IMG/VR virus record: IMGVR_UViG_3300017917_002795
Coordinates: 1 to 64,000 of that record
Length of the DNA stretch: 64,000 nucleotides
DNA from: a virus
Strand: one strand, 5' to 3'
The position numbers and the translations under genes are program-made. The notes under the pieces are model-generated. The model ran no database searches, had not been told where the DNA came from, and was given only the letters and a program-made list of their open reading frames with translations. Shown piece by piece: positions 21,296 through 61,807 of this stretch (position 1 is the stretch's first letter; the number at the start of each line of letters is the position of its first letter).

Positions 21296-22024
21296 ATGAT
21301 ACGACTTAAAGACTTACTGCAAGAACGCATTGTGTATCCTCTAGACGTAGTGCAACGCGTTGCGCAGAGCATGGGTGAATCTGTAACTGAGGAATTAGGC
21401 CGTGGAGCCAATGGTGTTGCGTATGCCTTGGAATCAGGACGTGTCTTAAAGATTACACCGGATCAAGCTGAGGTAGCACTTGCAACTCGTTTGCGCACCA
21501 AGCGGTTATTCAAGCACATCGTAAATGTGTATGATGTGCGCAAGATGGCAGCGTCATACACAAAGGCTGTTGAATTTACTGCAGGTGACAATTGGGTGAT
21601 CATCATGGACCATGTAACACCACTCACAGATAATCATCGTCGCATATGGAATGAGATACGTTATACCTATATGGATCTGCGTGTTTCAGATGCCGAGTTA
21701 CGTGCACGTATACCTAAATTAATAGCCAATGACTTTAAAGCAGAACGAGATGATGCATTTATTCAGCGCATTATGCCACAGCGCAAAGGTCTCATGCGAG
21801 ACTTTAACGAGTTGCGCATTGTGCATCGCGAAGCACATGGGGCTAATATGGGATGGAATCGACATGGTAGCTTGGTGCACTTTGATGCTTGGCAACATGC
21901 CCATTACACCAAAGTACCTGTGTGGATGCACCATGCAGCCAAAACACAAGGCTATGAAATGCCGCGCAACATGGATCCTTATAAAAAGTCGTTGGGCACG
22001 GACATAAACCCGGAGACACTATGA
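21296..22024 (+). CDS. Kinase-like protein with capsid-targeting-like leader (242 aa)
   Basis: The product starts with the leader MIRLKDLLQE shared by a set of unrelated proteins here. After it come kinase-fold landmarks: a glycine loop LGRGANG (34-40), a VLKIT lysine (K52), a catalytic-loop-like HREAHGAN (177-184) and HFDAW (D197) in place of DFG. The catalytic Asp of HRD is Glu here, so activity is not assured. Known precedent: T4 packages the Alt enzyme behind a 10-residue leader and injects it. I infer a packaged host-modifying kinase or pseudokinase. ATGA overlap with the next tagged gene. Confidence 0.7.
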   Translation: MIRLKDLLQERIVYPLDVVQRVAQSMGESVTEELGRGANGVAYALESGRVLKITPDQAEVALATRLRTKRLFKHIVNVYDVRKMAASYTKAVEFTAGDNWVIIMDHVTPLTDNHRRIWNEIRYTYMDLRVSDAELRARIPKLIANDFKAERDDAFIQRIMPQRKGLMRDFNELRIVHREAHGANMGWNRHGSLVHFDAWQHAHYTKVPVWMHHAAKTQGYEMPRNMDPYKKSLGTDINPETL

Positions 22025-22551
22025 TACGATTCGCCGACTTGCTGGCCGAAATTACATTGGGAAACATTCAACCATATGCTCGTCAGTTCCCATGGGAATC
22101 AATGTCAAATATCGATGATGCATACGAGGCTCGATTCATGGCTGATGGCGTTGAAATAGTAATGACCATGATGCATGGAGGTGACAATGAATGGTATTTT
22201 GCGTTTTTAATGCCCACTGCACAAACGAATGCTTGGAACAGCGGACGGACTACTTCACATTCTAAAAGTGGTGCAGTGGGACAACTTAACTATTTACGGC
22301 TCATACGTACCGCTGGAGAAGCGATACTAGATTTTTGCACAACACACACACCCGGAGCTGTTAATATATCTGGAGCTGATAGTTCCGCGGACAAAGAATC
22401 GCAAAAGACACGTATGTATGCTGCATTTGTTAGAGACAACGCTGCACGTTTAGCAGCAGCAGGATACACCACAATGCATCGCGGAGATCAATTGTGGTTA
22501 GTGCGTCGTAGTGATGCTGATGCAACGGGAGTAGAATCAGAGTCCCGTTAG
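22021..22551 (+). CDS. Leader-tagged conserved phage protein (176 aa)
   Basis: Starts MIRFADLLAE, the same leader type, and overlaps the kinase-like gene by ATGA. The second half (INISGADSSADKESQKTRMY, then LAAAGYTTMHRGDQLWLVRR) recalls a recurring phage family with a 'KRxRIY...GY' end; role unknown. A predicted alpha/beta globular protein of about 165 residues would remain after leader removal. Region 22552-22623 after it is GC-richer and empty. Confidence 0.7.
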   Translation: MIRFADLLAEITLGNIQPYARQFPWESMSNIDDAYEARFMADGVEIVMTMMHGGDNEWYFAFLMPTAQTNAWNSGRTTSHSKSGAVGQLNYLRLIRTAGEAILDFCTTHTPGAVNISGADSSADKESQKTRMYAAFVRDNAARLAAAGYTTMHRGDQLWLVRRSDADATGVESESR

Positions 22552-22623
22552 GGGCGTGAGTCAGCGGAGGCCTGTAGGGCTGCAGCGGACGAGCGTATTC
22601 ATACCGGGTTAATTTGTTATTCG

Positions 22624-22633
22624 GATATTTATT
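22624..22633 (+). promoter_or_regulatory. Late-type promoter GATATTTATT
   Basis: Three nt before the next ATG, same spacing as at 21282. Confidence 0.55.
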
Positions 22634-22636
22634 ATT

Positions 22637-23140
22637 ATGATACGACTACGAGACTTATTGGAACAATTGGGACAACTAGATTCAGTACGAGATGAAATTC
22701 TCCGACGTGTGCCATTTTTAAAATCGTTCAATGTTTCTAATCATCCTCGCGATCCTAAACGTCTTGAAGCGCAACGCGTTGTATACAATAAAGATGTACG
22801 AACTACGATGGGCGATGACATAATTATATTTCCACAATTCAATGTATCATCTAACGTAACGTATTATCCGCATGTTGTTGATGCATATACATTTCATAAC
22901 TTTGTCGTTAAAAATGAAATACATGCAATGCAACCCAAGGATATGGATGATTTAACATTTCGTGTATTTTTATATGCAAAGAAATCGTTGGAAGATAAAT
23001 TGTCATATAGTAAAGAGTTAATGGTGCCAACCGGAGAACCTATACCGACGCAAGATATGAATGACATTGTTAATGCAATGAATAAAACATTTTTTGAAAT
23101 TGAAGAATATACTAAAAACCATAATATAGATTTGTTCTAA
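22637..23140 (+). CDS. Leader-tagged hypothetical protein (167 aa)
   Basis: Leader MIRLRDLLEQ with likely cut after LLE. The remainder has no motif I recognise: a basic stretch FNVSNHPRDPKRLEAQR, beta-rich centre and acidic helical end (MNKTFFEIEEYTKNHN). The stop shares a base with the next tagged gene's start, so the cluster is translated as a unit. Confidence 0.7.
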   Translation: MIRLRDLLEQLGQLDSVRDEILRRVPFLKSFNVSNHPRDPKRLEAQRVVYNKDVRTTMGDDIIIFPQFNVSSNVTYYPHVVDAYTFHNFVVKNEIHAMQPKDMDDLTFRVFLYAKKSLEDKLSYSKELMVPTGEPIPTQDMNDIVNAMNKTFFEIEEYTKNHNIDLF

Positions 23141-23508
23141 TGATACAGTTAAAACATTTACTGGAGAATTTGGATACTTCGAAAATCAAAATTCGTAGTA
23201 CTCTAGTTAATGGTTTGCTGGTTTATTTGCCTACATATGATGGTGAACGTATGGGAGCATTTCGTTTACGTCCTCATGGTACGGATTGGCAAATTGATTC
23301 TGTTTTGCTTTACGATCGATTCAAAGGCGCGGGCATTGGTAAAGGGATGTATCGTTTCATTATCAAACATTTAGCACAACAACAGAAAAAATTGTATTCT
23401 GATAAGATGCAATCTCAGGAAGCACTTAATGTTTGGCAGAGTTTAGTTACTGCTGGACTTGCCATTCCTTTAGAAGGTGGAACATTTGTATCGAAGGTTA
23501 CAGCATGA
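23140..23508 (+). CDS. Leader-tagged GNAT acetyltransferase (122 aa)
   Basis: Leader MIQLKHLLEN. The core shows GNAT motif A: IDSVLLYDRFKGAGIGKGMYRFIIKHL, with the acetyl-CoA pyrophosphate loop R-F-K-G-A-G-I-G-K-G (60-69), then LYSDKMQSQEALNVWQSLV as motif B. It should transfer an acetyl group from acetyl-CoA to an amine. Target unknown; if packaged, a host protein or small molecule early in infection is likely. The fold is small but complete. Confidence 0.8.
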   Translation: MIQLKHLLENLDTSKIKIRSTLVNGLLVYLPTYDGERMGAFRLRPHGTDWQIDSVLLYDRFKGAGIGKGMYRFIIKHLAQQQKKLYSDKMQSQEALNVWQSLVTAGLAIPLEGGTFVSKVTA

Positions 23509-23951
23509 TATCACTTAACGGCATACTTACGGAACTTTTAATTGAACAGATTGCTGCTTCGCAAGTTGATCCCGTGCTAGACGGAGAAAATGGAAAGTTT
23601 TGGCACGTTACATTTGATTATACAGGCCCAGATGGCGTTACTTCTCAACGTTGGTGTCAATTATATCAGCGAAACATTACTACGCGTGGCAATGGCGCTA
23701 TATCTGCATATCAAGTATCACGTGATGGTCAATTAACAGGACCAGGTGGTGAATCATATGAAGGATGGAGAATATTTCGTTTAGACCGAATGCGCAACCT
23801 TAAAGTATCGCGTGTTCCTTTCTATCAGCCTCAAGCAGGGTTTAACCGTACTGGTAACCAAACTCCAAGTATCCGACAAACTGTTAAGATTGCTCCGGTT
23901 GGAACTTATCAATATAAGAATCCAAATTATCAGCCTAAACAAACTACTTAA
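23505..23951 (+). CDS. Leader-tagged WYL-like domain protein (148 aa)
   Basis: Start at 23505 (MISLNGILTE), ATGA-coupled; a longer in-frame reading begins inside the GNAT gene. Residues 33-105 read HVTFDYTGPDGVTSQRWCQLYQRNITTRGNGAISAYQ, then EGWRIFRLDRMRNLK, matching the WYL domain pattern (nG...aYq...gwr.frldrI). WYL domains sense ligands, often nucleic acids or nucleotides, in regulators of defence and DNA repair. The C-terminus is proline/asparagine-rich and probably flexible. Confidence 0.65.
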   Translation: MISLNGILTELLIEQIAASQVDPVLDGENGKFWHVTFDYTGPDGVTSQRWCQLYQRNITTRGNGAISAYQVSRDGQLTGPGGESYEGWRIFRLDRMRNLKVSRVPFYQPQAGFNRTGNQTPSIRQTVKIAPVGTYQYKNPNYQPKQTT

Positions 23952-23968
23952 AACTTTCTTGCATTTTT

Positions 23969-24000
23969 CTTGGTTTGCATCAATTTTTTTCTTATATTTA
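23969..24000 (+). promoter_or_regulatory. Host-type promoter CTTG-N20-TATATTTA
   Basis: CTTG 23969-23972 and TATATTTA 23993-24000 before the micro-gene at 24020. Confidence 0.6.
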
Positions 24001-24019
24001 AGGTATAAAAATTAAACAT

Positions 24020-24118
24020 ATGAAAAAAGTATTCAAAACATGTTTGGTTATTGCAGTGTTTTTAGTTGCAATATATATCAAGTACAAATATATGCATGTA
24101 TATTATATAGTTGAATAA
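24020..24118 (+). CDS. Micro membrane protein (32 aa)
   Basis: A 32-codon frame with a basic start (MKKVFK) and one membrane segment (TCLVIAVFLVAIYI), followed by a tyrosine-rich tail. Own host-type promoter. It is an early-class insert within a late-class cluster. Confidence 0.5.
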   Translation: MKKVFKTCLVIAVFLVAIYIKYKYMHVYYIVE

Positions 24119-24179
24119 AAAATATATTATAAAGTTTCTGAATACACAGTAACTTTTTTTCAATTCTACGATATATCCT

Positions 24180-24190
24180 GATATTTATGG
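24180..24190 (+). promoter_or_regulatory. Late-type promoter GATATTTATGG
   Basis: 22 nt before the next ATG, with AAAGGATAGGGGG as ribosome site. Confidence 0.45.
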
Positions 24191-24211
24191 TAAATGAAAG
24201 GATAGGGGGTG

Positions 24212-24475
24212 ATGGGACCGGAAGACATTGCGAAATTGACTCGAGATTTCGAACAGTTACGAGAATGTTATATACATTGGTTGGATCGTAATTTATATGA
24301 TTTAGCAGAAGAAGGTTCTATATCACATTATGATTATCAGCATGTTTTATTTGATGCATATGATTTTACCATAGATCCAACAGATTTCATCGATTTCATA
24401 AAACAAAAACATGGATTAGATACTGCTGAAGATATATTGCAATTTTTAAGTAGATTCTTGAAATGTATGGAATGA
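24212..24475 (+). CDS. Hypothetical acidic protein (87 aa)
   Basis: ATG at 24212 preferred; a GTG lies one codon upstream. Helical, acidic product (EDIAKLTRDFEQLRECYIHWLDRNLYDLAEEG, then IDFIKQKHGLDTAEDILQFLSRFL). No leader of the tagged type. No family recognised. Confidence 0.7.
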   Translation: MGPEDIAKLTRDFEQLRECYIHWLDRNLYDLAEEGSISHYDYQHVLFDAYDFTIDPTDFIDFIKQKHGLDTAEDILQFLSRFLKCME

Positions 24476-24486
24476 TATATTTATAT
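24474..24486 (+). promoter_or_regulatory. Late-type promoter GATATATTTATAT
   Basis: Overlaps the previous stop and lies 20 nt before the next start. Confidence 0.5.
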
Positions 24487-24506
24487 GTGTAAAAGGAATT
24501 GAAAAA

Positions 24507-24878
24507 ATGTTAAAACTTAAATCTTTAATTAAAGAAGGTTTTGCGTGGGAACGCAAAGCAGATGGATCTTTGCCTACCCTTAAAGATGCTATAGCAGTAC
24601 ACGAAGCCAATCAGAGTGTTAAACCTGATTATATCGACCTAGATAAAGATGGTAATAAAAAAGAGCCTATGAAAAAAGCTGCTAAGGAAGTAAATGAAGG
24701 TAAAGATGATTCTATTCTAGACTTAGTTTCTAGAGCCGAAGATATGGTTCAAAATCTACGTAGAAATATGGCTACTAATAGTGTATTACAACGTGAAGAG
24801 AAAATGGGATATCTTCGAGCTTATGACGAATTGCTAGATGTATTGAGTGATATTGGCTACCAAGCTGAAATGGAATAA
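24507..24878 (+). CDS. Leader-tagged protein with EF-hand-like loop (123 aa)
   Basis: Leader MLKLKSLIKE followed by G, a textbook gp21-type (I-x-E) junction. Then KPDYIDLDKDGNKKEPMKKAAKE, whose DxDxDGxxxE loop resembles a calcium-binding EF-hand or dockerin loop and recurs in phage proteins near head genes. The C-terminal half is a long helix. Possibly a virion-internal or scaffold-like protein. Confidence 0.7.
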   Translation: MLKLKSLIKEGFAWERKADGSLPTLKDAIAVHEANQSVKPDYIDLDKDGNKKEPMKKAAKEVNEGKDDSILDLVSRAEDMVQNLRRNMATNSVLQREEKMGYLRAYDELLDVLSDIGYQAEME

Positions 24879-24923
24879 AAATGCCTGCTACCTTAGGCAA
24901 TACGTTGTGAGGTAAACGTACGG

Positions 24924-24952
24924 AGTGCTAGTAGAAATATTAGCACTTTTTT
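24924..24952 (+). terminator. Intrinsic terminator
   Basis: AGTGCTA (24924-24930) pairs with TAGCACT (24941-24947), followed by TTTTT. Confidence 0.85.
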
Positions 24953-24960
24953 ACTGTTTA

Positions 24961-24970
24961 GATATTTATT
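24961..24970 (+). promoter_or_regulatory. Late-type promoter GATATTTATT
   Basis: Directly after the terminator and 3 nt before the micro-gene at 24974. Confidence 0.55.
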
Positions 24971-24973
24971 AAT

Positions 24974-25072
24974 ATGAAAAGTATATTTGCATTCTTAGTA
25001 GGTTGTGTAGCAATAATCGTGCTAGGACATTATGCATTTTACGAAATGTTATTTATCAAGGTCAATCAATGA
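24974..25072 (+). CDS. Micro membrane protein (32 aa)
   Basis: A 32-codon frame, one membrane segment (IFAFLVGCVAIIVLGHYAF) and short polar end. ATGA overlap with the ferritin-like gene suggests coupled translation and perhaps joint function at the membrane. Confidence 0.55.
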   Translation: MKSIFAFLVGCVAIIVLGHYAFYEMLFIKVNQ

Positions 25073-25575
25073 GTACAATTAAAACACCAAAAACATTAGC
25101 TGATGCATCCGTAAAAATTTTAACAGAACGGTTAGGGGATGAATACACAGCTCATTATTTTTATCGCAATGCAACAAATTGGTGTGCTGGGATAGGTTAT
25201 ATGAAAGCCGCAGCATTTTTTGCGCAAGAAGCCGAAAATGAATTAGAACATGCAAAAGGATTGCAGAAATATCTAGTAGATTGGAACGTAATGCCTTTAT
25301 TACCGTCAATCAAACCAAACATCACATTCACAGATCTAATTGATATAATTAATAAAGCATACGCATTAGAATATGCCTTATTTGAAGCGTATATGCGTGA
25401 TTCAAAATCTTTATTCGAAACAGATTTGAATACATATGATTTTTTAACTGCATACCGCACCGGGCAAAATGATTCAGTAATTGAATATTCTGATTTATTG
25501 AATGCTGCAGAACTGATTGATACAAATAATAAGTTTGAAATACTATATTTCGAACAAACATATTTTCAAGGATAA
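25069..25575 (+). CDS. Ferritin-like protein (168 aa)
   Basis: Start at 25069 (MSTIKTPKTLADASV) by the ATGA overlap; the upstream in-frame extension lies within the micro-gene. The four-helix pattern fits ferritin: LTERLGDEYTAHYFYRNATNW (helix A), GYMKAAAFFAQEAENELEHAKGLQKYL with ExxH (helix B, residues 54-61), a YALEYALFEAYMRD helix C and TAYRTGQNDSVIEYSDLL helix D. Helix D has lost the EQHEEE metal cluster of bacterial ferritins, so the diiron site may be altered. Ferritins store or oxidise iron; phage versions are uncommon. Confidence 0.75.
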   Translation: MSTIKTPKTLADASVKILTERLGDEYTAHYFYRNATNWCAGIGYMKAAAFFAQEAENELEHAKGLQKYLVDWNVMPLLPSIKPNITFTDLIDIINKAYALEYALFEAYMRDSKSLFETDLNTYDFLTAYRTGQNDSVIEYSDLLNAAELIDTNNKFEILYFEQTYFQG

Positions 25576-25577
25576 CA

Positions 25578-25721
25578 ATGGCAAAGGTTAAAGCAAATAC
25601 CGTAAGTACACATATTAAACGTCCAAAAGTTAAACGTCCGGGCGTGCACGCAAAATCAAAATCATCTACAAACAAAACCAGTAAAAATTACGTTAAGTCA
25701 TATGTAGCTCAGGGAAGATGA
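25578..25721 (+). CDS. Small highly basic phage protein (47 aa)
   Basis: Very basic frame of 47 codons with the pattern KRPKVKRPGVHAKSKSS...KTSKNYVKSYVAQGR, which recurs in many tailed phages (KRPGxHAKxKxSxxKxSKNYKKxYxGQGR). Likely binds DNA or RNA by charge; role unassigned. ATGA overlap with the next leader-tagged gene. Confidence 0.75.
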   Translation: MAKVKANTVSTHIKRPKVKRPGVHAKSKSSTNKTSKNYVKSYVAQGR

Positions 25722-27646
25722 TACGGTTAAAATACATATTAGAGCAAGCTAAAAATGCAAAACAGTCATCGAAACCAAAAAAACTAAATGTTCTTTTTGT
25801 TGGTGATGCTGATACAACTGCTACATTTAGTTATGCTCGAGATATTTTAAAAACCAGAGAAGTTAACGGCAATATTTCAGCTGCTAACATTTCAATTGAA
25901 CAATTTCCTAGATTATTGCAAACTGCAGATATGAAAAAATATAATGTTATCTGCATTATGTATAGCAATATTAAACCCGGTAAAACTACACGCGAAGAAG
26001 AAGTGTTACAACAAATGTACACAGATGCCAAAGATTCTGGTGCTATGTTGATTGCCATAACGCCGACTACCAAAGAATTTGTCGCTTATGGCCATATCAC
26101 ACACGAAAACAATGAAAGCATTGTGCAATGGGTATTAGAACAAAACATTGCAGACCATGTAATCGATGCATATAAATTAACGCGTAAGAAAAACTTTTTC
26201 AATAAAGATGGATTACTATTAAACGCAGAAGGACATGAACTCATTGCTCGTCAAGTTTTACGAGTATTAAATGAAATTGATTCGGATGTTGACGCTGCGG
26301 CAATTGAACGAGAAAAACAATCGGAGAAAGAAAAATCACGTAAAACGAAACGTAAAGATATTAAAGGTAAAGTTAAAAAAGCCGTTGAATTTAAACGCGG
26401 ATCCAAATCTCCTGATTTAATTGAAATACAACAACGTCTAGTTAAATTAGGATATGAAATAGATCCCGTAGAAATCAAACAAGGTTTATTCGGTGAAACT
26501 ACGGAAACTGCCGTAATGCAATTTCAAACAATAAATGATTTATCGGTAACTAGTAAATTAACAAAAACTGATATTAATGCAATAAAGTCATCTGGTGCTA
26601 AAAGTTATGGTACACTGTCATATATGGCAAAATCATTGGTTAATAAACCAGTTGAATTGCCAAAAGAAGAACCAGATTCTAAAGAACCAGATACACTATC
26701 AACACAATTTATAAGCGGTGAAAAATATGATGCTGAAACTTCAGATGATATTATTACACAAGCAGCTGCAATACTGCGATCTGAAGAAGGTTTTTCTACA
26801 AAACCACATTGGGATGTAAATAACTGGAGAATTGGATACGGTAGTAGCACTATTACAGATGCATCTGGTAAAGTAGTCAAACTATCATCAAATCGATCAG
26901 AACGTCCAGCTATTAAAATCACCCAACAAGATGCTGAACGCGATTTACAACGCAGATTACGAGATGAATTTATACCGCATACCAAAAAAAGTATTGGGAC
27001 TGGTGTTGATAAATTAAACAATGCTACTATTGCTGCATTAACATCAGTAACATATAACTACGGAACTTTGCCATCATCTGTAGTTCAAGCAGCTAGAACT
27101 GGTGATATTGAATCAATTGCCGATGCTGTTAGATCTTTAAGTGCTAATCGTAAAAGAAGAAATCGAGAAGCAGATTGGATCCAAAATAGTAAATCTAGAG
27201 AAGTCTCAAAAACTATAGCTACTGGAAATAATGGTAAACTGTCAGCTGGTGAATTAGTTAGTATTGGTGATGGGTTTAAATTAAATGCAGATGCTGCTGC
27301 TGATTTTCTAGAAATGAAAAAAGCTGCTAATGCTGATGGTGTACAATTTAAAATAACTGATGCATATCGACCATATGAAATTCAAGATGCTATTTTTGAT
27401 TGGGAACGATATAATAGAACCGGAGAAAAAAAGAAAAAAGGAACAAATGTAGCTGCAGCATTACCAGGCACATCCAACCATGGATGGGGTAAGGCAATAG
27501 ATGTTTCTCCAGCAGCTGCTCAGCAATGGATCAAGAAAAACGGATATAAATATAATTGGTCATGGTATGAGGGAAAGTCGCTTAATCCGCCAGAACATTG
27601 GCACTTTACATGGACTACAGATTCATCTAAATTAAAAGAATGGTAG
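25718..27646 (+). CDS. Leader-tagged multi-domain cell-wall hydrolase (642 aa)
   Basis: Domains in order: leader MIRLKYILEQ; an SGNH-hydrolase-like domain (about 22-185) with GDAD at 29-32 instead of the catalytic GDS and block V LNAEGH (H173), so probably inactive; a lysine-rich linker (195-228); a peptidoglycan-binding repeat (230-292); a GH24 lysozyme domain (345-495) with RSEEGF, WRIGYGS and a T/N-rich helix; and an M15 D-Ala-D-Ala peptidase (505-635) with SNHGWGKAID (H588, D595) and PPEHWHF (E626, H629). It should cut both sugar and peptide bonds of peptidoglycan. The leader suggests it rides in the virion, unlike a holin-released endolysin. Confidence 0.85.
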   Translation: MIRLKYILEQAKNAKQSSKPKKLNVLFVGDADTTATFSYARDILKTREVNGNISAANISIEQFPRLLQTADMKKYNVICIMYSNIKPGKTTREEEVLQQMYTDAKDSGAMLIAITPTTKEFVAYGHITHENNESIVQWVLEQNIADHVIDAYKLTRKKNFFNKDGLLLNAEGHELIARQVLRVLNEIDSDVDAAAIEREKQSEKEKSRKTKRKDIKGKVKKAVEFKRGSKSPDLIEIQQRLVKLGYEIDPVEIKQGLFGETTETAVMQFQTINDLSVTSKLTKTDINAIKSSGAKSYGTLSYMAKSLVNKPVELPKEEPDSKEPDTLSTQFISGEKYDAETSDDIITQAAAILRSEEGFSTKPHWDVNNWRIGYGSSTITDASGKVVKLSSNRSERPAIKITQQDAERDLQRRLRDEFIPHTKKSIGTGVDKLNNATIAALTSVTYNYGTLPSSVVQAARTGDIESIADAVRSLSANRKRRNREADWIQNSKSREVSKTIATGNNGKLSAGELVSIGDGFKLNADAAADFLEMKKAANADGVQFKITDAYRPYEIQDAIFDWERYNRTGEKKKKGTNVAAALPGTSNHGWGKAIDVSPAAAQQWIKKNGYKYNWSWYEGKSLNPPEHWHFTWTTDSSKLKEW

Positions 27647-28370: not shown

Positions 28371-28556
28371 ATGACATCACAAGAACTTTTCCAAGAAATG
28401 GAACAACATTGGTTATCGTTTAAAGAAAATCACGAACGTTTTACTGAAAAACAAGTAAAAGCAGCTGGAGTTAGAGCTCGAAAATCTATCAATGAACTTA
28501 AAAAACTTGCAAGTAAGTATAGATCGACCCAATTAGCTGAATCGAAAAATGCGTAA
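28371..28556 (+). CDS. Histone H1-like (Hc1-type) protein (61 aa)
   Basis: The stretch QVKAAGVRARKSINELKKLASKYR (about 28-51) matches the Hc1/histone-H1-like pattern (KaaGxRARKaLxELkkLakeyR), a nucleoid-associated family common in Bacteroidota and in their phages. The first 25 residues are acidic/helical. Expected to bind DNA; here under late-type control, so packaging or late nucleoid remodelling is plausible. Overlaps the next gene by 8 nt. Confidence 0.75.
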   Translation: MTSQELFQEMEQHWLSFKENHERFTEKQVKAAGVRARKSINELKKLASKYRSTQLAESKNA

Positions 28557-29109
28557 ACCTATCAATGAACATATCATCGTAACGACATTGCATCAGATGG
28601 TGTATGAACAAGCAGAAGCTGGTAAAATCAGCACTGATAATGCACCATCATCTGATCCTGAGTCTGCATTTACACCAGCTGAAAAAAGATTTTTGGGTAA
28701 ATTTGATGCGTATGGTTCTAATCATTTAGGTATCATATATTCTATTTCAGATGCTGGCATTCGAGAATTCATAGCAAGAAGCGGTAAAGACTTCAATTGC
28801 ACTCCAGACATCCTATTAGGACTTCTTAGAGACAAAATTATTAAGATTGTTCCTTATACCGGATTTGGTCGTAACAGTGATTACACAATCGAATTGCAAT
28901 TATCATTAGATGATGTTAAAGGTTTTGGTGCAGAAGATAAGGAAAAAGCTGAAAAAGGTGCCGAGGGGGGAGGGGGCGGAATGCCAGCTCCTGAAGCTCC
29001 ACCACCACCGCCTGGTCCTGAAAATGCTGGAGTTGTAAAAACTGGTACGGTACTAAAAGAATCTAAAGATATTTTAAGATCTGCTTTAAAGAAGTTATTA
29101 TCTAAATAA
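28549..29109 (+). CDS. Conserved hypothetical protein with Gly/Pro linker (186 aa)
   Basis: Globular part (45-125) includes FTPAEKRFLGKFDAYGSNHLGIIYSISDAGIREF and CTPDILLGLLRDKIIKIVPYTGFGRNSDYTIELQL. A linker with GGGGG and PPPPPGP (about 140-160) joins a C-terminal basic helix (ESKDILRSALKKLLSK). Such linkers are typical of virion or scaffold proteins. Translationally coupled to the H1-like gene. Confidence 0.75.
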   Translation: MRKPINEHIIVTTLHQMVYEQAEAGKISTDNAPSSDPESAFTPAEKRFLGKFDAYGSNHLGIIYSISDAGIREFIARSGKDFNCTPDILLGLLRDKIIKIVPYTGFGRNSDYTIELQLSLDDVKGFGAEDKEKAEKGAEGGGGGMPAPEAPPPPPGPENAGVVKTGTVLKESKDILRSALKKLLSK

Positions 29110-32304: not shown

Positions 32305-32781
32305 TTAAATTCCACCAGCACCTAGAATACCAGAGTCCGACCATTCTTCGTTTGAGTTAAATTGCTTTAAATGCCTTTCGATACCACCGGTGATTTTTTC
32401 ATTTTTTGGATCAAATAATGATCGGAATGAATTTGGTTTCGTTTCTTCCATATCAGTACTTAACCACGCGAGTATAGTTTTATATTTCATTTTATTAACT
32501 AATGCTAATACTTGATCGTATATTTGTTTATTTTTAATACCTCGTACGACTGCGTTATAAACTGACATATTATCGGTACCTAAACCAGCCATGGCAGTTT
32601 TTATTTGCTGAATAATTGCATTAGGATTTAATTGTTCCAATAATGCTTTACGTACTTCTAAATACAAACCATGTTGTTCAATAGTTTCCATAATTGAGTT
32701 AACAACTAATTCTTTCTGTGCAGCTTCTGACAAATTTTTAGTTCCAAAACGCATCATGTTTTCTGCTAATGTGTTTTTCAT
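32305..32781 (-). CDS. Annexin-like protein with NLSE leader (158 aa)
   Basis: Minus-strand gene with ribosome site AAAGGA. It starts MKNTLAENMMRFGTKNLSE, nearly the same 19 residues as the minus-strand gene at 33541. Residues 56-112 (IIQQIKTAMAGLGTD...YNAVVRGIKNKQIYDQVLALV...ILAWLSTDM) resemble one annexin repeat with the GxGTD calcium loop and an acidic residue about 40 positions later. Annexins bind phospholipid; phage relatives are unassigned. The leader ends L-S-E, fitting a prohead-protease site. Confidence 0.65.
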   Translation of the reverse strand: MKNTLAENMMRFGTKNLSEAAQKELVVNSIMETIEQHGLYLEVRKALLEQLNPNAIIQQIKTAMAGLGTDNMSVYNAVVRGIKNKQIYDQVLALVNKMKYKTILAWLSTDMEETKPNSFRSLFDPKNEKITGGIERHLKQFNSNEEWSDSGILGAGGI

Positions 32782-33540: not shown

Positions 33541-34383
33541 TTATTTTATTTTATTAACATTAACCATCTCACCATAATGCCATGTTAGAACTTCGATATA
33601 ATCTGCATATCCCTTATATTCTGGACAATATCCATCCCCTAATCTTATTCGAATATAATCAACTCCAGCTTTTAATTTTGAACCATTTATATGAAGACTT
33701 TTTGGAATAACCGTTGGATCATCAAATGCTGCTAAAGCTTGATCTGCCCCAGCCCCAGCACCTCTTGCAACAAACAAATCTGATTGCTGTTCTATAGTAC
33801 GATCAGCTGATTCAGATGCTGTACCGTCACTTTGTATAAATGGTTTATTTGGATCTCCAGAATAGTTTGTGGTAACTGGCCGGTTAAATAAATATAAGTA
33901 TGTTGTACCAGATTTTAAATCTGCGTTGTTAGTTACACTACCATAATGTCCAACATAACAAGCTCTTGTCATAAATGAACCTACAATAATCTTATCTGTA
34001 TTATTATTTTCTAACTCTAGAAATCCGTAACCACCAGCACCAGCAACAGCTCCAGATTTAGGATCCCATAATACAAGTTTTTTTGCAAAAACTAAAATAG
34101 TTTTTCCAATTATTTTATTAAGATTGCCCTGATAACCTCCTATATATTCGATCATTGTTTTCCATAATCCATCAGACTTTAAAAACGATCGATTTGGATC
34201 AGATTTCGAAGGAGTAATTGAGATTCCAGGAACGGTCATTAATGATTTTGCATGAGTTCCGGTAATATTAGACTTACCAGAATCAGTTGGTTCTGTTGCC
34301 TGTTCTGCTAATTTAGATCGATCAGTTTCAGAAAGATTTTTTACGCCAAATCTAAGTAAATTTTCTGCTAATGTGTTTTTCAT
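33541..34383 (-). CDS. NLSE-leader protein, copy 2 (280 aa)
   Basis: Start at 34383 (MKNTLAENLLRFGVKNLSE) by match with the paralogous leader at 32781; an in-frame ATG nine codons upstream precedes the ribosome site and is unlikely. After the leader the protein differs fully from its neighbour: a beta-rich region of 240 residues with DPNRSFLKSDGLWKT and DPNKPFIQSDG repeats, VLWDPKSG and GYGFLELENNN. Possibly a virion protein. Converges with the secreted-protein gene, 4 nt apart. Confidence 0.7.
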   Translation of the reverse strand: MKNTLAENLLRFGVKNLSETDRSKLAEQATEPTDSGKSNITGTHAKSLMTVPGISITPSKSDPNRSFLKSDGLWKTMIEYIGGYQGNLNKIIGKTILVFAKKLVLWDPKSGAVAGAGGYGFLELENNNTDKIIVGSFMTRACYVGHYGSVTNNADLKSGTTYLYLFNRPVTTNYSGDPNKPFIQSDGTASESADRTIEQQSDLFVARGAGAGADQALAAFDDPTVIPKSLHINGSKLKAGVDYIRIRLGDGYCPEYKGYADYIEVLTWHYGEMVNVNKIK

Positions 34384-34408
34384 ATTTTTTTCCTTTGTGG
34401 TTACTTTC
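34361..34408 (-). repeat. 48-bp leader repeat, copy 2
   Basis: Identical to 32759-32806, covering ribosome site, start codon and first seven codons. Confidence 0.9.
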
Positions 34409-34420
34409 ATATAAATATAC
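34408..34420 (-). promoter_or_regulatory. Late-type promoter GTATATTTATATG (minus strand)
   Basis: About 25 nt before the minus-strand ATG at 34383. Confidence 0.55.
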
Positions 34421-51465: not shown

Positions 51466-53097
51466 ATGGCAGAATCTAAATTAAAACAACAAGATACGTA
51501 TCAAGGAATATATCCTACAGTTTTTAAAAAGATTGATGCTACAGATATTAACGTTAGTCCGTTTCAATCATATAAAACATGGACATTTACAAACAGTAGT
51601 CCTACTAGTAGTATACAAATATTAAAAGGTATATATTCAGATCCAAATTTTTTACCAGCATTAGGTACTAACTTAACGTATAATGATGCTGTGAATAATG
51701 ATGGATCATTGCAAACGCTTACATATTTTTCTATAAATCATTTTTATTATAAATACAAAACAGAACCTACTAAAACTTTTGGTCCTACAGATCTATCTCG
51801 AACTAAAAAAGTTTTATATGAATCTGCTTCTGTTTTTTCTTTTCCACAACGACAAATTGGCGATGGTATTAAACCAGGATCTTTTAAAATAAACGGAAAT
51901 TTCCAAGCTTCGGGTATTTACGGGGTTGGGATTTATGGAAATAGTATATATGGTAATGCTATAAATTCAAATGTTACTATTGTTTCTGATAGATATGGTA
52001 ATTTAATACATTCAGAATATCCAACAGCATCGATTATATCTAATGTAATGTGGTATGAAGGATTTAATGAATATTTTGATACAACACGAGTTGCATATTC
52101 ATCAGCTAATGTTTCATATATTCCAGGAATTTCATATAATTCAGGATCTGGATCATATGGTTATCAAGCTAATTTTGCTGGTGATGGATATATTAAAACA
52201 TCAATCGATGGTTTATATGATCGCAATCATAATTATGCAATTTCATTTTTTATTAAAGCAGAAAATAATACTGCAAATTCTAACATCATTTTAACCAAAT
52301 CTACCAGTTCATTAACACCTCAGTTTCCATTTAAAATTGAATTAACACCAAATAATTACATTGATTTTACGATTGCTGGAAGTACATCAGTTAAAAATAA
52401 TATCACATCTTCTATTGCAATGAATTCAGTTGAACGGCATATATTGTGTCAGAAATCTGGAAGTGTTATGCAGTTATGGATTGATGGTATATTGCATGCT
52501 TCAGCTAGTAGTACGTTTTTAACAGATACCAATTCACCATTAGTAGAATCTGCGCGCATTGATAACGCAGATCCGGTGTTTATTGGTGGATATGAGACTT
52601 CTGGTAGTGGATTAGTTGGTAATATAGATGAAATTCGAATTTATAATAAAGCATTAACATCCACAGAAATTGGTTATTTATGTGATATTAATTCCAATTT
52701 GACATTCATGCAAACTAATCATGTGGGTAACGTATTTTCTAAACAAGGAATAGCCGTAATTTCATCCCCGGATTATCGTTTTGATTACATCGTTAATAAC
52801 AATTTTGAAATTTCATACCGAAGCACCAAAACAATTCATGAATTATCGGTGATTGCTAATGTTAATTCAGGTGATTTTAATATGTCAACCAATTTAACAT
52901 TAACTAAAGATGATGATCAAACATATAAATCATTTGTTAGTAGTAGTAGTTTTTCACCATACATAACTACAATTGGATTATATGATGGCAATGGCCAATT
53001 ATTGGCAGTCGGAAAATTAGCTCAGCCAATACGTAAGCTTACTGATGTTGATATGAATTTATTGGTTCGTATTGATTTAGATAGGAATATATCATGA
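51466..53097 (+). CDS. LamG-domain tail protein (543 aa)
   Basis: N-terminal KQQDTYQGIYPTVFKKIDATDINVSPFQ, a middle with glycine/tyrosine turns (ASGIYGVGIYGNSIYGN), a LamG/concanavalin-like domain at about 225-400 (YAISFFIKAENN, QLWIDGILHASAS, GNIDEIRIYNKALTSTEI), and a C-terminal module (YITTIGLYDGNGQLLAVGKLAQPIRK...LLVRIDLD) shared with the previous protein. LamG domains bind carbohydrate, so host-surface binding is likely. Its stop overlaps the next tagged gene by ATGA. Confidence 0.8.
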   Translation: MAESKLKQQDTYQGIYPTVFKKIDATDINVSPFQSYKTWTFTNSSPTSSIQILKGIYSDPNFLPALGTNLTYNDAVNNDGSLQTLTYFSINHFYYKYKTEPTKTFGPTDLSRTKKVLYESASVFSFPQRQIGDGIKPGSFKINGNFQASGIYGVGIYGNSIYGNAINSNVTIVSDRYGNLIHSEYPTASIISNVMWYEGFNEYFDTTRVAYSSANVSYIPGISYNSGSGSYGYQANFAGDGYIKTSIDGLYDRNHNYAISFFIKAENNTANSNIILTKSTSSLTPQFPFKIELTPNNYIDFTIAGSTSVKNNITSSIAMNSVERHILCQKSGSVMQLWIDGILHASASSTFLTDTNSPLVESARIDNADPVFIGGYETSGSGLVGNIDEIRIYNKALTSTEIGYLCDINSNLTFMQTNHVGNVFSKQGIAVISSPDYRFDYIVNNNFEISYRSTKTIHELSVIANVNSGDFNMSTNLTLTKDDDQTYKSFVSSSSFSPYITTIGLYDGNGQLLAVGKLAQPIRKLTDVDMNLLVRIDLDRNIS

Positions 53098-53639
53098 TAC
53101 GTTTAAAACATTTATTAAATGAAATTTCACAACCAGAAATTCAGCGTTTATTAGAAAAAATCAAACAAAAACAATTTCGTTTATTAGCAACCGGTGATAA
53201 TGGTCGTGTTTATGAAATTGATGGGGAAGATAAAGTTTTTAAAATCACACAAGAACGAGATGAATTAGATGTTGCTTCGGTTATTGTAGGTCGTTGGACT
53301 GAGTTTACTACTTTTATTCCAGTATATTACATTAATAACCGGGAATCAATGTATATCATGGCTAATGCTAATCAATTAACTAGTTCTGATAAAATGTATA
53401 TCGATGAATTTATGTCTAGATATAAAGATTTTGCACGTGCAGAAGGAGGCGAAGTTTCAATTTTTGATTTTTTAGATGCAGATGGTGCTCGTAATACTGA
53501 TGTTAAATTAGTGAATTTTTTACGGTCATTACAAACAGATGTTAGCAAAATAGGTATTGATGAATTAGATTTAGATCTTGATTTTAGTTCTAATAATGTT
53601 ATGATTTGGAATGGTAAAATGGTATTAGTTGATTGGTAA
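53094..53639 (+). CDS. Leader-tagged kinase-like protein, second copy (181 aa)
   Basis: Leader MIRLKHLLNE, then a compact kinase-like fold: glycine loop LLATGDNGRVYEI (30-42), KVFKIT with K50, catalytic-loop-like DLDFSSNN (D163, N168) and VDW (D180) replacing DFG. It is shorter than the copy at 21296 and ends right after the DFG-like motif, so it lacks the lower C-lobe. Phosphotransfer is possible but unproven. Placed at the end of the tail operon, under late control. Confidence 0.65.
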   Translation: MIRLKHLLNEISQPEIQRLLEKIKQKQFRLLATGDNGRVYEIDGEDKVFKITQERDELDVASVIVGRWTEFTTFIPVYYINNRESMYIMANANQLTSSDKMYIDEFMSRYKDFARAEGGEVSIFDFLDADGARNTDVKLVNFLRSLQTDVSKIGIDELDLDLDFSSNNVMIWNGKMVLVDW

Positions 53640-58402: not shown

Positions 58403-61400
58403 ATGAAGCGTAAAGAAGCAGTTTATAAAGGAGTAAATCTTACGGAAGTTTATTTTGAAGATACATCATTAACATCACCAGAATATTTTCAAATATCAGA
58501 ATTTCCAACACGTTTAACTGCTGGGAAAAATCTATTTAAACTTCGAGGACATCCCACAAATTTACGGGTTGGTGGTGTTTTAAATTTAGAAGTATTAGAT
58601 TATAACGGTGATCCTATCTACACAGAAATTGTTGATTATCTTGAAGAAGATAAGTCCCGAGTTATTGCAATCTATATTTATTCTGAAACATCACCGGGCG
58701 ATTGCACAGTAACATTAGTAGCTGAAGCAGTAACGATACAAGGTGCACCAGTGCCAATTGAATGGCAAGGACGTCCTAACGTTAAATGGTCTAGAACTGT
58801 CCCGGTTAATCCAAACGTTTCCAATGAAACTGAAATCATATTTACCAAATCACCAGCAATCATAGTATCAGAACAGATAGGAGTACAATTAAATCGTATA
58901 TATCCATCCAATGAACAATTTCCAACATATACCACCGGTCAAGTTCGTTATTTTTCATTGAATGGGGAGCCTGCTATTGAAATTTCCTCCGGGAAATTCT
59001 CCGGAGACATGAAAACTGGTACTATAACTGTACCGGCTCCAGTAAACCCTGCCCCTACACCTAATTTTCCGGTGGTTTCCACGCCTTACGTGTCTACGAT
59101 AAAAAAGATATTATCTGAAACAACGGCTTTGTTAGATCGCGAATATACGGCTTTTAGTAGCCAAAGCATTGCACCACATATATACACGGAATTTGCAGAG
59201 TCTGCATTTTCAATGTCATATGAAGCATCACCTACGTATGTGGCAACAGAAAACTCACAATCATTCGCATTGATACAACTTAAAGGATTAGATCCATCAA
59301 CTGGTGATGTGTCTCGAATCAAAGTTTATACCAATAACAAAGGTACGGTTGGAACATGGGAATTGGTTAATGATATTGAGTTAGAAGAAACGGAAATATT
59401 CGTAACTAGCACAGCATCATTATTTCCAGATGAATCTATAGGATCATTTGTATCACAGAGTATTATTGACACATATTGGGAAGGATTTACATATCAAGGT
59501 AAAACCACAGCAACTGCACCTGTATTAACATGGTCTACTGCATCTATGAATAATGCCATGGTAATTGGCAATGTTGTTGATATATCTGCTCTAAATGCAG
59601 TGAATGTTGTTCAAACTAAAGAAGCATTTAATGGGGTATTCATTGAAAAATCTGCATATAAAGTTACCATCGATGCAATTGGAAGTAGATCCGCAGATGG
59701 ATTGAATCCAAAACTATCCGTGTATGTGTCTGGATCTGCATTTTCATTTGATACTACCGATTACTTTAATCAAGAATTACCTAGAATTCTAGGTAAACGC
59801 ATCGGAGAAATTGAAATTACATCAAATTCACAACGCATTGATGATAAAGTATTTAATTTTGAATCTGATTATGATGGAACGGGTGCTTTACTATTTGTTA
59901 TAGAAGCTGGCAACTGGGAACTATCTGATGTGCGAACTACTACGGATAATGATGCAGGGTATTCGCCAAACTACACCAGATTGCGTTCTGTTATTAATAC
60001 TCCACATAAATCAAACAATCAGATTTCATTTAAAGTAGAATATTATAATGTTGCTGGCGTAAAGAGTAAACAAGAATCATATCTTTACAACAATTCATGG
60101 AAAGGTGGTAATCGTTATATTGATGGCGATTATTCAATGCTAACCGGTTCACTCTATGTTGCAGATTCATTGGAATCGGGTGTTGCAATATCCGGATATA
60201 AAGATACTGGTTTTGTTAGATCATTAGGATATGAAGGATTTGAAGCTGGATTTCCAGGATTCTTGCTTTGGAGTGGATCTGCATTATCTGGTTCAGCAGG
60301 TTCAAAAGGAGGTGTTCCTTATAGTGGCGTTGGATTAGAACTGTATGCCAATACCGCAAGTTATTTTAGATACTCGACTTCAGATTCAGAAATTGATGTG
60401 CGTACTGACAAATTCTTTTTTGGAAATCCAAATACTGCATATATCAGTGGTAGTAATGGCTTGTTAGAAATTTCATCATCTAAATTTTTATTAAGTAGTA
60501 GTGGAGCTGTTTTTATTGAAGGCGATGTTAATGCAACTGTTGGAAACTTTGAAGATGTGAATATAATAGGTATTCCGGTATTCCAATCAGGATCATTGCT
60601 TTATTTTTTAGAAACATGGTTTACATCATCAACGTATATTTTAAATGCATATAACGGAACACAATCAGCAGCTCCTGTTACATCATATTTTAATTATGGA
60701 TTATTAGGATGGTCTGCTAGTAACAGTGCATTAGCAACGCCTCTTTTTACATCATCGATCATGTCTGCGTCTAAATATTCTGGCGTAACAACTCCAAAAC
60801 CTCCTTTGTTTAAACAATGGTTTGAATATACGCATGACAATTCATATTATCCATATTATCCATATGGATCAAAACAATACAATCCAGTAAATAATGTACA
60901 ATTTAGAATTCCAGATGCTGGCACAGGAACGTATACAATAACTAGTGATATAATAACAATACCTGTCGACATATTATCATCTGATAACATGGAAGGATTA
61001 TTATTGCAAACAGTCGCAATGATTGGGCCTAGTTTTGGAGGATATTCGCCTAGCATAAGTGTTCAAATACAAAATGCTAGCGGAGTAAATTTAAAAACTT
61101 TAACATATACTGTTGATAATTCTAGATGGAATTATTTTAATATTGCATTAACACCTATATTAGTATCATATGATTCCTTTGGAAGCCTGACAATAACTAA
61201 TCAAATACGAATTCGATTAAGTTGGTCTGGTGCAAATACACCAGGGGGTGGTAATCTTAATTGGATTAGATGGGGAGAATTACGAATCATAAAAATACCA
61301 CAAGGACCAGGATTATCAATAACTAACGTTACTTTTGGTGATAGTGCATTATCCTCCGGACCATTATTTAATACATCTGGTAGCACTCAACATCTAGGAC

Positions 61401-61786
61401 ATTTTGTTCCAGAAGACGATAATGCTTATAATTTAGGTATTTCTAACCGTAGATGGGATGATATTTATGCTACTAATAATGTAATTCAAACTTCAGATAT
61501 ATCGCAAAAAGAAAATATAATAGATTCTGATTTAGGATTACATTTCATAAATTTATTGAGGCCGGTTAGTTATAAATTCAAAGAAAGATCTAGAACACAT
61601 TATGGGTTAATCGCTCAAGAAGTTAGTGCATCATTAATGCAATTAGATAAAACAACAAGTGAATTTGCTGGTATCGTGACAGGGTCTTTGCTTGGATTAC
61701 GATATATTGAACTATTATCACCTATGATTAAAGCAATACAAGAACTATCTACAGAAGTACAACAATTAAAATTAAATCAAAAATAA
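58403..61786 (+). CDS. Tail fibre with S74 endosialidase-type chaperone end (1127 aa)
   Basis: Starts MKRKEAVYKGVNLTEVYFED. A long beta-rich fibre follows, with SGS and SSS turns and a SASK-rich region. The last 110 residues are an S74 intramolecular chaperone: NAYNLGISNRRWDDIYATN, TSDISQKENI (catalytic Ser), FINLLRPVSYKFKERSRTHYGLIAQEVS and a C-terminal coiled coil SPMIKAIQELSTEVQQLKLNQK. The chaperone folds the trimer and then cuts itself off. Likely the receptor-binding fibre. Confidence 0.88.
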   Translation: MKRKEAVYKGVNLTEVYFEDTSLTSPEYFQISEFPTRLTAGKNLFKLRGHPTNLRVGGVLNLEVLDYNGDPIYTEIVDYLEEDKSRVIAIYIYSETSPGDCTVTLVAEAVTIQGAPVPIEWQGRPNVKWSRTVPVNPNVSNETEIIFTKSPAIIVSEQIGVQLNRIYPSNEQFPTYTTGQVRYFSLNGEPAIEISSGKFSGDMKTGTITVPAPVNPAPTPNFPVVSTPYVSTIKKILSETTALLDREYTAFSSQSIAPHIYTEFAESAFSMSYEASPTYVATENSQSFALIQLKGLDPSTGDVSRIKVYTNNKGTVGTWELVNDIELEETEIFVTSTASLFPDESIGSFVSQSIIDTYWEGFTYQGKTTATAPVLTWSTASMNNAMVIGNVVDISALNAVNVVQTKEAFNGVFIEKSAYKVTIDAIGSRSADGLNPKLSVYVSGSAFSFDTTDYFNQELPRILGKRIGEIEITSNSQRIDDKVFNFESDYDGTGALLFVIEAGNWELSDVRTTTDNDAGYSPNYTRLRSVINTPHKSNNQISFKVEYYNVAGVKSKQESYLYNNSWKGGNRYIDGDYSMLTGSLYVADSLESGVAISGYKDTGFVRSLGYEGFEAGFPGFLLWSGSALSGSAGSKGGVPYSGVGLELYANTASYFRYSTSDSEIDVRTDKFFFGNPNTAYISGSNGLLEISSSKFLLSSSGAVFIEGDVNATVGNFEDVNIIGIPVFQSGSLLYFLETWFTSSTYILNAYNGTQSAAPVTSYFNYGLLGWSASNSALATPLFTSSIMSASKYSGVTTPKPPLFKQWFEYTHDNSYYPYYPYGSKQYNPVNNVQFRIPDAGTGTYTITSDIITIPVDILSSDNMEGLLLQTVAMIGPSFGGYSPSISVQIQNASGVNLKTLTYTVDNSRWNYFNIALTPILVSYDSFGSLTITNQIRIRLSWSGANTPGGGNLNWIRWGELRIIKIPQGPGLSITNVTFGDSALSSGPLFNTSGSTQHLGHFVPEDDNAYNLGISNRRWDDIYATNNVIQTSDISQKENIIDSDLGLHFINLLRPVSYKFKERSRTHYGLIAQEVSASLMQLDKTTSEFAGIVTGSLLGLRYIELLSPMIKAIQELSTEVQQLKLNQK

Positions 61787-61787
61787 C

Positions 61788-61802
61788 ATATTTATATTAA
61801 AA
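61788..61802 (+). promoter_or_regulatory. Late-type promoter ATATTTATATTAAAA
   Basis: Five nt before the ATG at 61808. Confidence 0.6.
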
Positions 61803-61807
61803 TTCAT

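Follow-up and report, generated by a model that had tools for sequence, protein, structure and literature searches.

In phage T4, leaders of 10–19 residues are removed by the prohead protease gp21, which cleaves after L/I-X-E (PMC9026906). In the capsid-targeting sequence (CTS) of the internal protein IPIII, residues 4 and 7 serve targeting and residues 8 and 10 processing; Asp at position 10 blocks the processing while the targeting is kept (PMC9026906). In T-even phages, injected anti-restriction proteins that show no other relationship share a leader (PMC3012670, PMC12373910). Here, an N-terminal leader of about 10 residues, shared by dissimilar proteins, is described in a 64,000-nucleotide stretch of viral DNA (the window), i.e., bases 1–64000 of the 140,594-bp IMG/VR record IMGVR_UViG_3300017917_002795 (the source genome, G000). 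This N-terminus is very probably a T4-type CTS whose form is specific to the clade.

The leader resembles those of T4 IPI, IPII and IPIII (PMC9026906, PMC3012670, PMC12373910) in its length (10 residues; 19 in T4 IPI), in the hydrophobic residues at positions 4, 7 and 8, and in the [L/I]-x-E end. As in T4, gp21 is encoded in the genome, the mature parts of the proteins are unrelated, and their genes are clustered away from the head genes. Unlike the T4 consensus, M-K-T-Y-x-E-F-I-x-E, that of the present leader is M-I-R/K-L-K-x-L-L-x-E, and its cargo, known here from the genes, often comprises large multidomain enzymes encoded by uncultured Bacteroidota-type phages. An enzyme with a leader is also exemplified by T4 Alt, a packaged and injected ADP-ribosyltransferase (ART) starting with MELITELFDE; ART-like N-terminal motifs were recognized by eye in the cargo from L494, Microcystis phage Mel-JY01, and G001. 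The ejection proteins of phiKZ and SPN3US provide another parallel, since those phages possess a gp21-related protease, x-x-E cleavage and head-carried proteins, but their propeptides mostly exceed 100 residues and feature S/A-x-E motifs (PMC5694885). The anti-restriction protein DarB of P1 is likewise loaded into the head by an N-terminal signal; this signal, however, comprises ~30 residues, and the Dar proteins share no consensus (PMC9024508).

In the literature searched (mostly outside subscription papers), neither an account of this leader nor virion proteomics for this group was found. As far as this literature shows, the new elements are a distinct leader code spread over a large uncultured clade, a much larger, enzyme-rich cargo, and the use of the leader as a sequence detector. 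Injected phage proteins and the defences they counter are known for few phages, with a handful characterized in T4. With a leader readable from sequence, many genes of uncultured phages that are anonymous at present could be ranked as candidates for injected effectors and anti-defence proteins. Cultured members of the group do exist (Flavobacterium phage immuto and Microcystis phage Mel-JY01). In immuto (vB_FspM_immuto_2-6A, grown on strain LMO8), immuto26A_40 (QQO91719.1) begins with MIKLIDLLTE and immuto26A_178 (QQO91857.1) with MISIYNILKE, the predicted mature proteins starting at S11 and V11, respectively; for immuto26A_41 and immuto26A_188, the cut is predicted behind LAGIITE.

Leader Sequence and Conservation

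The original prediction named eight leaders in the window, and all eight open reading frames (ORFs) and their sequences proved to be exact. They are listed below, the arrow marking the presumed cut:

21296–22024, + strand: leader MIRLKDLLQE↓R, exact; 242 aa, possibly kinase-like; ATATTTATTA directly upstream
22021–22551, + strand: leader MIRFADLLAE↓I; 176 aa, no family assigned; leader kept in the homologues G003_15548, G004_99081 and G006_53063
22637–23140, + strand: leader MIRLRDLLE↓Q with Glu at position 9 (LLE); 167 aa, no family assigned; GATATTTATTA directly upstream
23140–23508, + strand: leader MIQLKHLLE↓N; 122 aa, weak GNAT similarity (Acetyltransf_1, E 0.003)
23505–23951, + strand: leader MISLNGILTE↓L; 148 aa, no family assigned (WYL, 16.7 bits, cut-off 21.8)
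24507–24878, + strand: leader MLKLKSLIKE↓G; 123 aa, phrog_24078 (unknown function) at 9e-8 over 27 residues; ATATTTAT upstream
25718–27646, + strand: leader MIRLKYILE↓Q; 642 aa, GDSL-like N-terminus, PG_binding_1, Phage_lysozyme and VanY; leader kept in homologues from G004, G006 and G008
53094–53639, + strand: leader MIRLKHLLNE↓I; 181 aa, kinase-like fold; present in all relatives examined (G001–G009)

The motif required correction. It had been written with three free residues after position 4, a pattern matching none of its own eight sequences; two residues separate positions 4 and 7, so the motif reads M-I-x-L-x-x-[L/I]-[L/I]-x-E, i.e., M-x-x-hydrophobic-x-x-hydrophobic-hydrophobic-x-E. The final Glu claimed for position 10 is present there in five of the eight leaders; in those of 22637 (LLEQ), 23140 (LLEN) and 25718 (ILEQ) it occupies position 9. 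The rest of the genome, where a search for further leader genes had been proposed, yielded a ninth leader, MIKLKNVLKE at 113551. The element [L/I]-x-E is present in all nine, at positions 7–9 or 8–10 (Glu10 in six, Glu9 in three).

At the N-termini of the source genome, the loose pattern was observed 11 times against 0.89 expected from the internal 10-mers of the proteome (P = 2e-9), and the strict pattern, itself shaped by the finding, 9 times against 0.08 (P = 3e-16). The N-termini of 10113 (MVDVLSILKN) and of the exonuclease 115870 (MNKYQRLFKE) fit a loose pattern too; the I2/L4 code is missing from both, and they were treated as false positives. As an independent test, N-termini were picked by positions 1–8 alone in the genome set G000–G009, comprising mostly relatives; Glu10 was found in 49 of 59 and Glu9 in 6 more, as compared with 69 of 1265 other proteins, with the orthologues being non-independent and inflating the P value. 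The set includes 50 distinct leader 12-mers; position 4 is L or M in all of them, position 7 is L, I or V, position 8 is L, I or F, and Glu10 occurs in 42. Positions 2, 4, 7, 8 and 10 are fixed, and positions 6 and 9 are free. Positions 4, 7, 8 and 10 coincide with the residues of T4 IPIII involved in targeting (4, 7) and processing (8, 10). T4 itself served as a positive control: applied to its ORF starts, the pattern retrieved IPII, IPIII, Alt and gp24, together with 61.1 and a small number of other proteins.

The most constant cargo is the product of 53094. In its 59 distinct orthologue proteins, I2, L4 and E10 never change, positions 7 and 8 are L or I, and positions 6 and 9 are free. L4 and L8 are kept as residues while their codons drift, which argues that the selected object is the peptide; a signal at the RNA or DNA level is, for the same reason, unlikely.

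Prohead Protease and Head Proteins

Profile search revealed gp17-, gp20-, gp21- and gp23-type proteins at 66–76 kb of the source genome, and by its sequence this phage is a member of the T4 superfamily. Among named phages, its major capsid protein (MCP) is closest to those of Flavobacterium phage immuto (56% identity), Microcystis phage Mel-JY01 (54%) and Rhodothermus phage RM378 (40%), hence the host is likely a member of Bacteroidota.

The gp21-type protease, whose search elsewhere in the genome had been proposed as a check, is encoded at 71196–71825, outside the window. It matches Pfam Peptidase_S77 (PF03420) at 1.7e-31 and the PHROG head maturation protease at 8e-54; its GELxHP and SSRGxGS motifs are invariant with T4 gp21, and the catalytic His and Ser are kept. 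The presumed cleavage site of the MCP is conserved as well: in exact alignment with the cut column of T4 gp23, FLTE↓A, the MCP of the source phage has LVKE↓A, that of immuto IVSE↓A and that of Mel-JY01 LISE↓A.

The proteins encoded between the portal and MCP genes contain 21, 15, 10 and 9 [LIV]-x-E sites, where the genome background predicts 5.3, 4.6, 3.7 and 2.1. This amounts to 2–4 times the background and about twice the expectation from composition, and the portal, terminase and MCP show no excess; such richness is as expected, judging by sequence, for core proteins digested by gp21. Together with the MCP site, it bears on the putative [L/I/V]-x-E specificity of the protease in this clade. 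A 334-aa protein of this region (73230), situated in the place of gp22, starts with MAKSDLLKE↓A, to be compared with MLKEQLIAE↓A of T4 gp22. In another genome, a 369-kb record, the gp21 homologue (G047:C1:71424-72503) falls into two separate matches and contains a single in-frame TAA, possibly because of an intein, recoding or an error.

Distribution of the Leader and Diversity of Its Cargo

In IMG/VR, the exact pattern M-I-R-L-K-x-L-L-x-E was found in at least 120 stretches and its E/R-swapped control in 4; 75 of the 83 retrieved M-I-R-L-K matches lay at an ORF start (0 of 4 for the swapped controls). The M-I-K-L-K form was found in at least 120 stretches too, with 81 of 92 matches at ORF starts. 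A search of 84,980 cellular genomes with the first pattern returned 82 stretches, of which 8 of 80 lay at an ORF start and none resembled the phage cargo; these matches look like chance. The internal 10-mer statistics, the swapped-pattern control, the cellular genomes and the Glu test led to rejection of a chance origin of the leader. Twenty leader contigs with lengths from 50 kb upwards were gathered by the leader pattern alone, without reference to gp21, and 14 of them encode this protease; it is lacking from the one large swapped-control contig.

When the first ten residues were removed, 152 cargo proteins fell into 64 clusters lacking mutual BLAST similarity. Most cargo families are patchy across the relatives and enzyme-like. 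A minority is named by Pfam, including lysozymes with LysM or PG-binding domains, VanY, an SleB-type hydrolase, SET and DnaJ-like proteins, 2′-5′ RNA ligase/LigT, cupin, the zeta-toxin family, DUF5872 and DUF6934. Among the murein hydrolases, several that are unrelated to one another bear the leader independently; they are of the Phage_lysozyme, Phage_lysozyme2 and SleB types (L137, L132, L093, L100, L116, L201). The ART-like motifs seen by eye in the leader cargo are located at L494:472-1008, in L349 (Mel-JY01 record, 60276-62718) and at L095:5101-5589 (YHYTN...IIKREGLL, VWHLTT, TYHGSS); a true ART here would be a counterpart of T4 Alt.

Proposed Function and Alternative Explanations

The T4-type CTS and gp21-type protease invoked by the original prediction are strongly supported by the presence of the protease gene, the MCP site, the match with the T4 residues and the many unrelated cargo proteins. 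The leader, protease, conserved MCP site, unrelated cargo and specificity to phage contigs are read directly from the genomes; from these, we infer binding to the core, cleavage of the leader proteins and their residence in the virion. Late in infection, the short leader helix, with hydrophobic residues at positions 2, 4, 7 and 8, would bind the scaffold core of the prohead and pull the cargo inside. The gp21-type protease would then cut behind [L/I]-x-E at residue 9 or 10, destroy the core and leave the mature proteins free inside the head. They would remain with the DNA, enter the next host on ejection and act there ahead of phage gene expression. By analogy with T4, injection and roles in counter-defence or takeover may be envisaged.

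Certain points weigh against this scenario. Several cargo proteins are murein hydrolases, which are odd as cytoplasmic effectors; they might act in DNA entry, as T7 gp16 probably does, instead of in the cytoplasm. Position 10 is Q or N in three of the nine leaders, requiring a cut one residue earlier. No gp21 was found in two leader contigs of >100 kb (G048, G050), which may be fragments; the proposed core protein 73230 has no gp22 homology detectable by profile search; and no virion proteome of any group member was found in the literature. In the 53094 family, L, M or I invariably follows the presumed cut, as compared with A, S or D in the T4 examples considered here, and the cleavage of this family is less certain. 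A targeted but uncut form is possible in this case, since T4 tolerates Asp10 for targeting (PMC9026906).

Other explanations of the shared N-terminus have to be weighed against a CTS. The spacing of its hydrophobic residues could give a short amphipathic helix, addressed to the host membrane or to another phage complex (e.g., replisome or tail) and unrelated to gp21, and the murein hydrolases in the cargo would agree with this. Such a helix fails to predict a near-invariant Glu10 next to free positions 6 and 9, the upholding of [L/I]-x-E by the shift of Glu to position 9, or the match with the T4 CTS residues, and the SET, DnaJ, LigT, cupin and zeta-toxin cargo has no common membrane role; we therefore consider it quite improbable. 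Descent of the leader genes from one ancestor, with the N-terminus as its relic, would account for the adjacency of several of them at 21.3–27.6 kb and for the weak overall similarity of the 21296 and 53094 products. It is hardly credible, given that the leader proteins of the source genome deprived of 10 residues show no BLAST link to one another and that the cargo domains clearly differ in fold.

The leader may, alternatively, target the prohead but deliver mainly structural or scaffold parts and not injected effectors. The shell vertex protein of T4, gp24, has a leader of the same kind (MAKINELLRE), and the kinase-like 53094 protein occurs in all of the relatives, as a structural part would. 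Most cargo families, on the other hand, are patchy between the relatives and enzyme-like, as the T4 internal proteins are, so this option appears unlikely, though not negligible. Proceeding from a CTS that delivers effectors, a wider proposition can be formulated: the uncultured T4-superfamily clade, probably infecting mostly Bacteroidota, would load more than 60 fast-changing protein families into its heads via one leader code (plus a version of 19–22 residues), making the leader a general, sequence-readable detector of phage-injected effectors. The proposed arsenal would include kinase-fold proteins, murein hydrolases, a zeta-toxin-family kinase, a SET-domain protein, a 2′-5′ RNA-ligase/LigT protein and many proteins of no assigned family. 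This clade-wide reading and the arsenal are judged jointly, and the arguments for and against the whole seem to us evenly balanced.

Cargo Proteins in the Window

The kinase-like, GNAT, WYL-like and wall-hydrolase domains originally ascribed to the cargo fared differently. The wall hydrolase is clear: the 25718 product matches VanY (1e-15), PG_binding_1 (3e-10) and Phage_lysozyme (3e-9) in Pfam, with GDSL at just 0.16. The GNAT similarity of the 23140 product is present but, at 18.2 bits, falls below the Pfam cut-off of 20.7, and the WYL-like assignment of the 23505 product is not supported, the sub-threshold match covering 18 residues.

A kinase-like fold is supported, by a model, for the 53094 product; the 21296 product, weakly similar to it (BLASTP, E 0.004), is possibly kinase-like. 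The AlphaFold model of the 53094 product has a predicted local distance difference test (pLDDT) score of 90; residues 1–9 score below 50 and form no defined structure, the folded domain lying entirely behind the predicted cut. According to Foldseek, the fold resembles aminoglycoside phosphotransferases (APH), RIO and CK2-type kinases with modest TM-scores. As this protein combines a match to a kinase-type fold with an end at a DFG-like Asp-Trp, it is regarded, on the strength of the model, as a short kinase-like protein with putative activity. A sequence search of PDB with the profile of the family gave nothing significant, and tblastn detected no match to the product among 50,697 named phage records. 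For the 21296 product, Pfam, PHROG and NCBIfam gave no match above threshold, and a single-sequence structure model was uninformative (pLDDT 36). A tblastn search of IMG/VR for relatives of 21296 and 22021 found none, though homologues of 22021 exist in G003, G004 and G006.

Longer Leader Class

A second class of leaders comprises 19–22 residues with the consensus M-K-N-[I/L]-L-[A/S]-E-N-[M/L]-x-R-F-G-T-K-N-L-S-E. Two genes of the window match it at their N-termini:

32305–32781, − strand: longer-leader gene, MKNTLAENMMRFGTKNLSE↓A
33541–34410, − strand: longer-leader gene, MKNTLAENLLRFGVKNLSE↓T preceded by further residues, probable start at an internal Met

The longer leader was found in 58 IMG/VR ORFs, at the ORF start in 56 of them, and on many proteins (L434–L472). 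Hybrids such as MIKLKNILAENMRRFGTKNLSE, where the longer leader is fused behind the MIKLK form, occur as well. It holds [L/I]-x-E sites, and its length resembles that of the IPI-type propeptide of T4, whose leader is a longer form ending with STITE↓A; judging by these features, it is a probable extended CTS.

Two immuto proteins (L089:25061-25456 and L087:11675-12139) share MKKQILSEQF[K/R]RMQ[K/F]LAGIITES, an analogous long leader ending with I-T-E. In a family represented at 28549–29109 of the window, G003:21023 and G004:93107, TDNAPxxxxxSxFTP(AE) is conserved, while the N-terminal helix (14–20 residues) varies and ends with I/V-x-E↓Q; this helix may be another extended leader.

Upstream Elements

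The leader genes had been placed behind late-type promoters. The T4 late consensus, TATAAATA, was not found upstream of them; what was found is the group's own motif of virion genes, ATATTTAT(A). The 8-mer ATATTTAT is the commonest one upstream in this group and precedes the portal, neck, tail and baseplate genes in the source genome. It lies within 30 bases upstream of 22 of 61 leader genes vs. 163 of the 1263 remaining genes (P = 7e-6). For TATTTATT, the enrichment upstream of the leader genes is 12-fold (odds ratio). Since the motif of the virion genes is enriched there, late expression of the leader genes together with the virion genes, via an element different from that of T4, is plausible. 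Genome-wide, the commonest element upstream of the ORFs of the source genome is ATATTTATA, which stands before virion genes and is likely a late promoter element of this clade, replacing TATAAATA.

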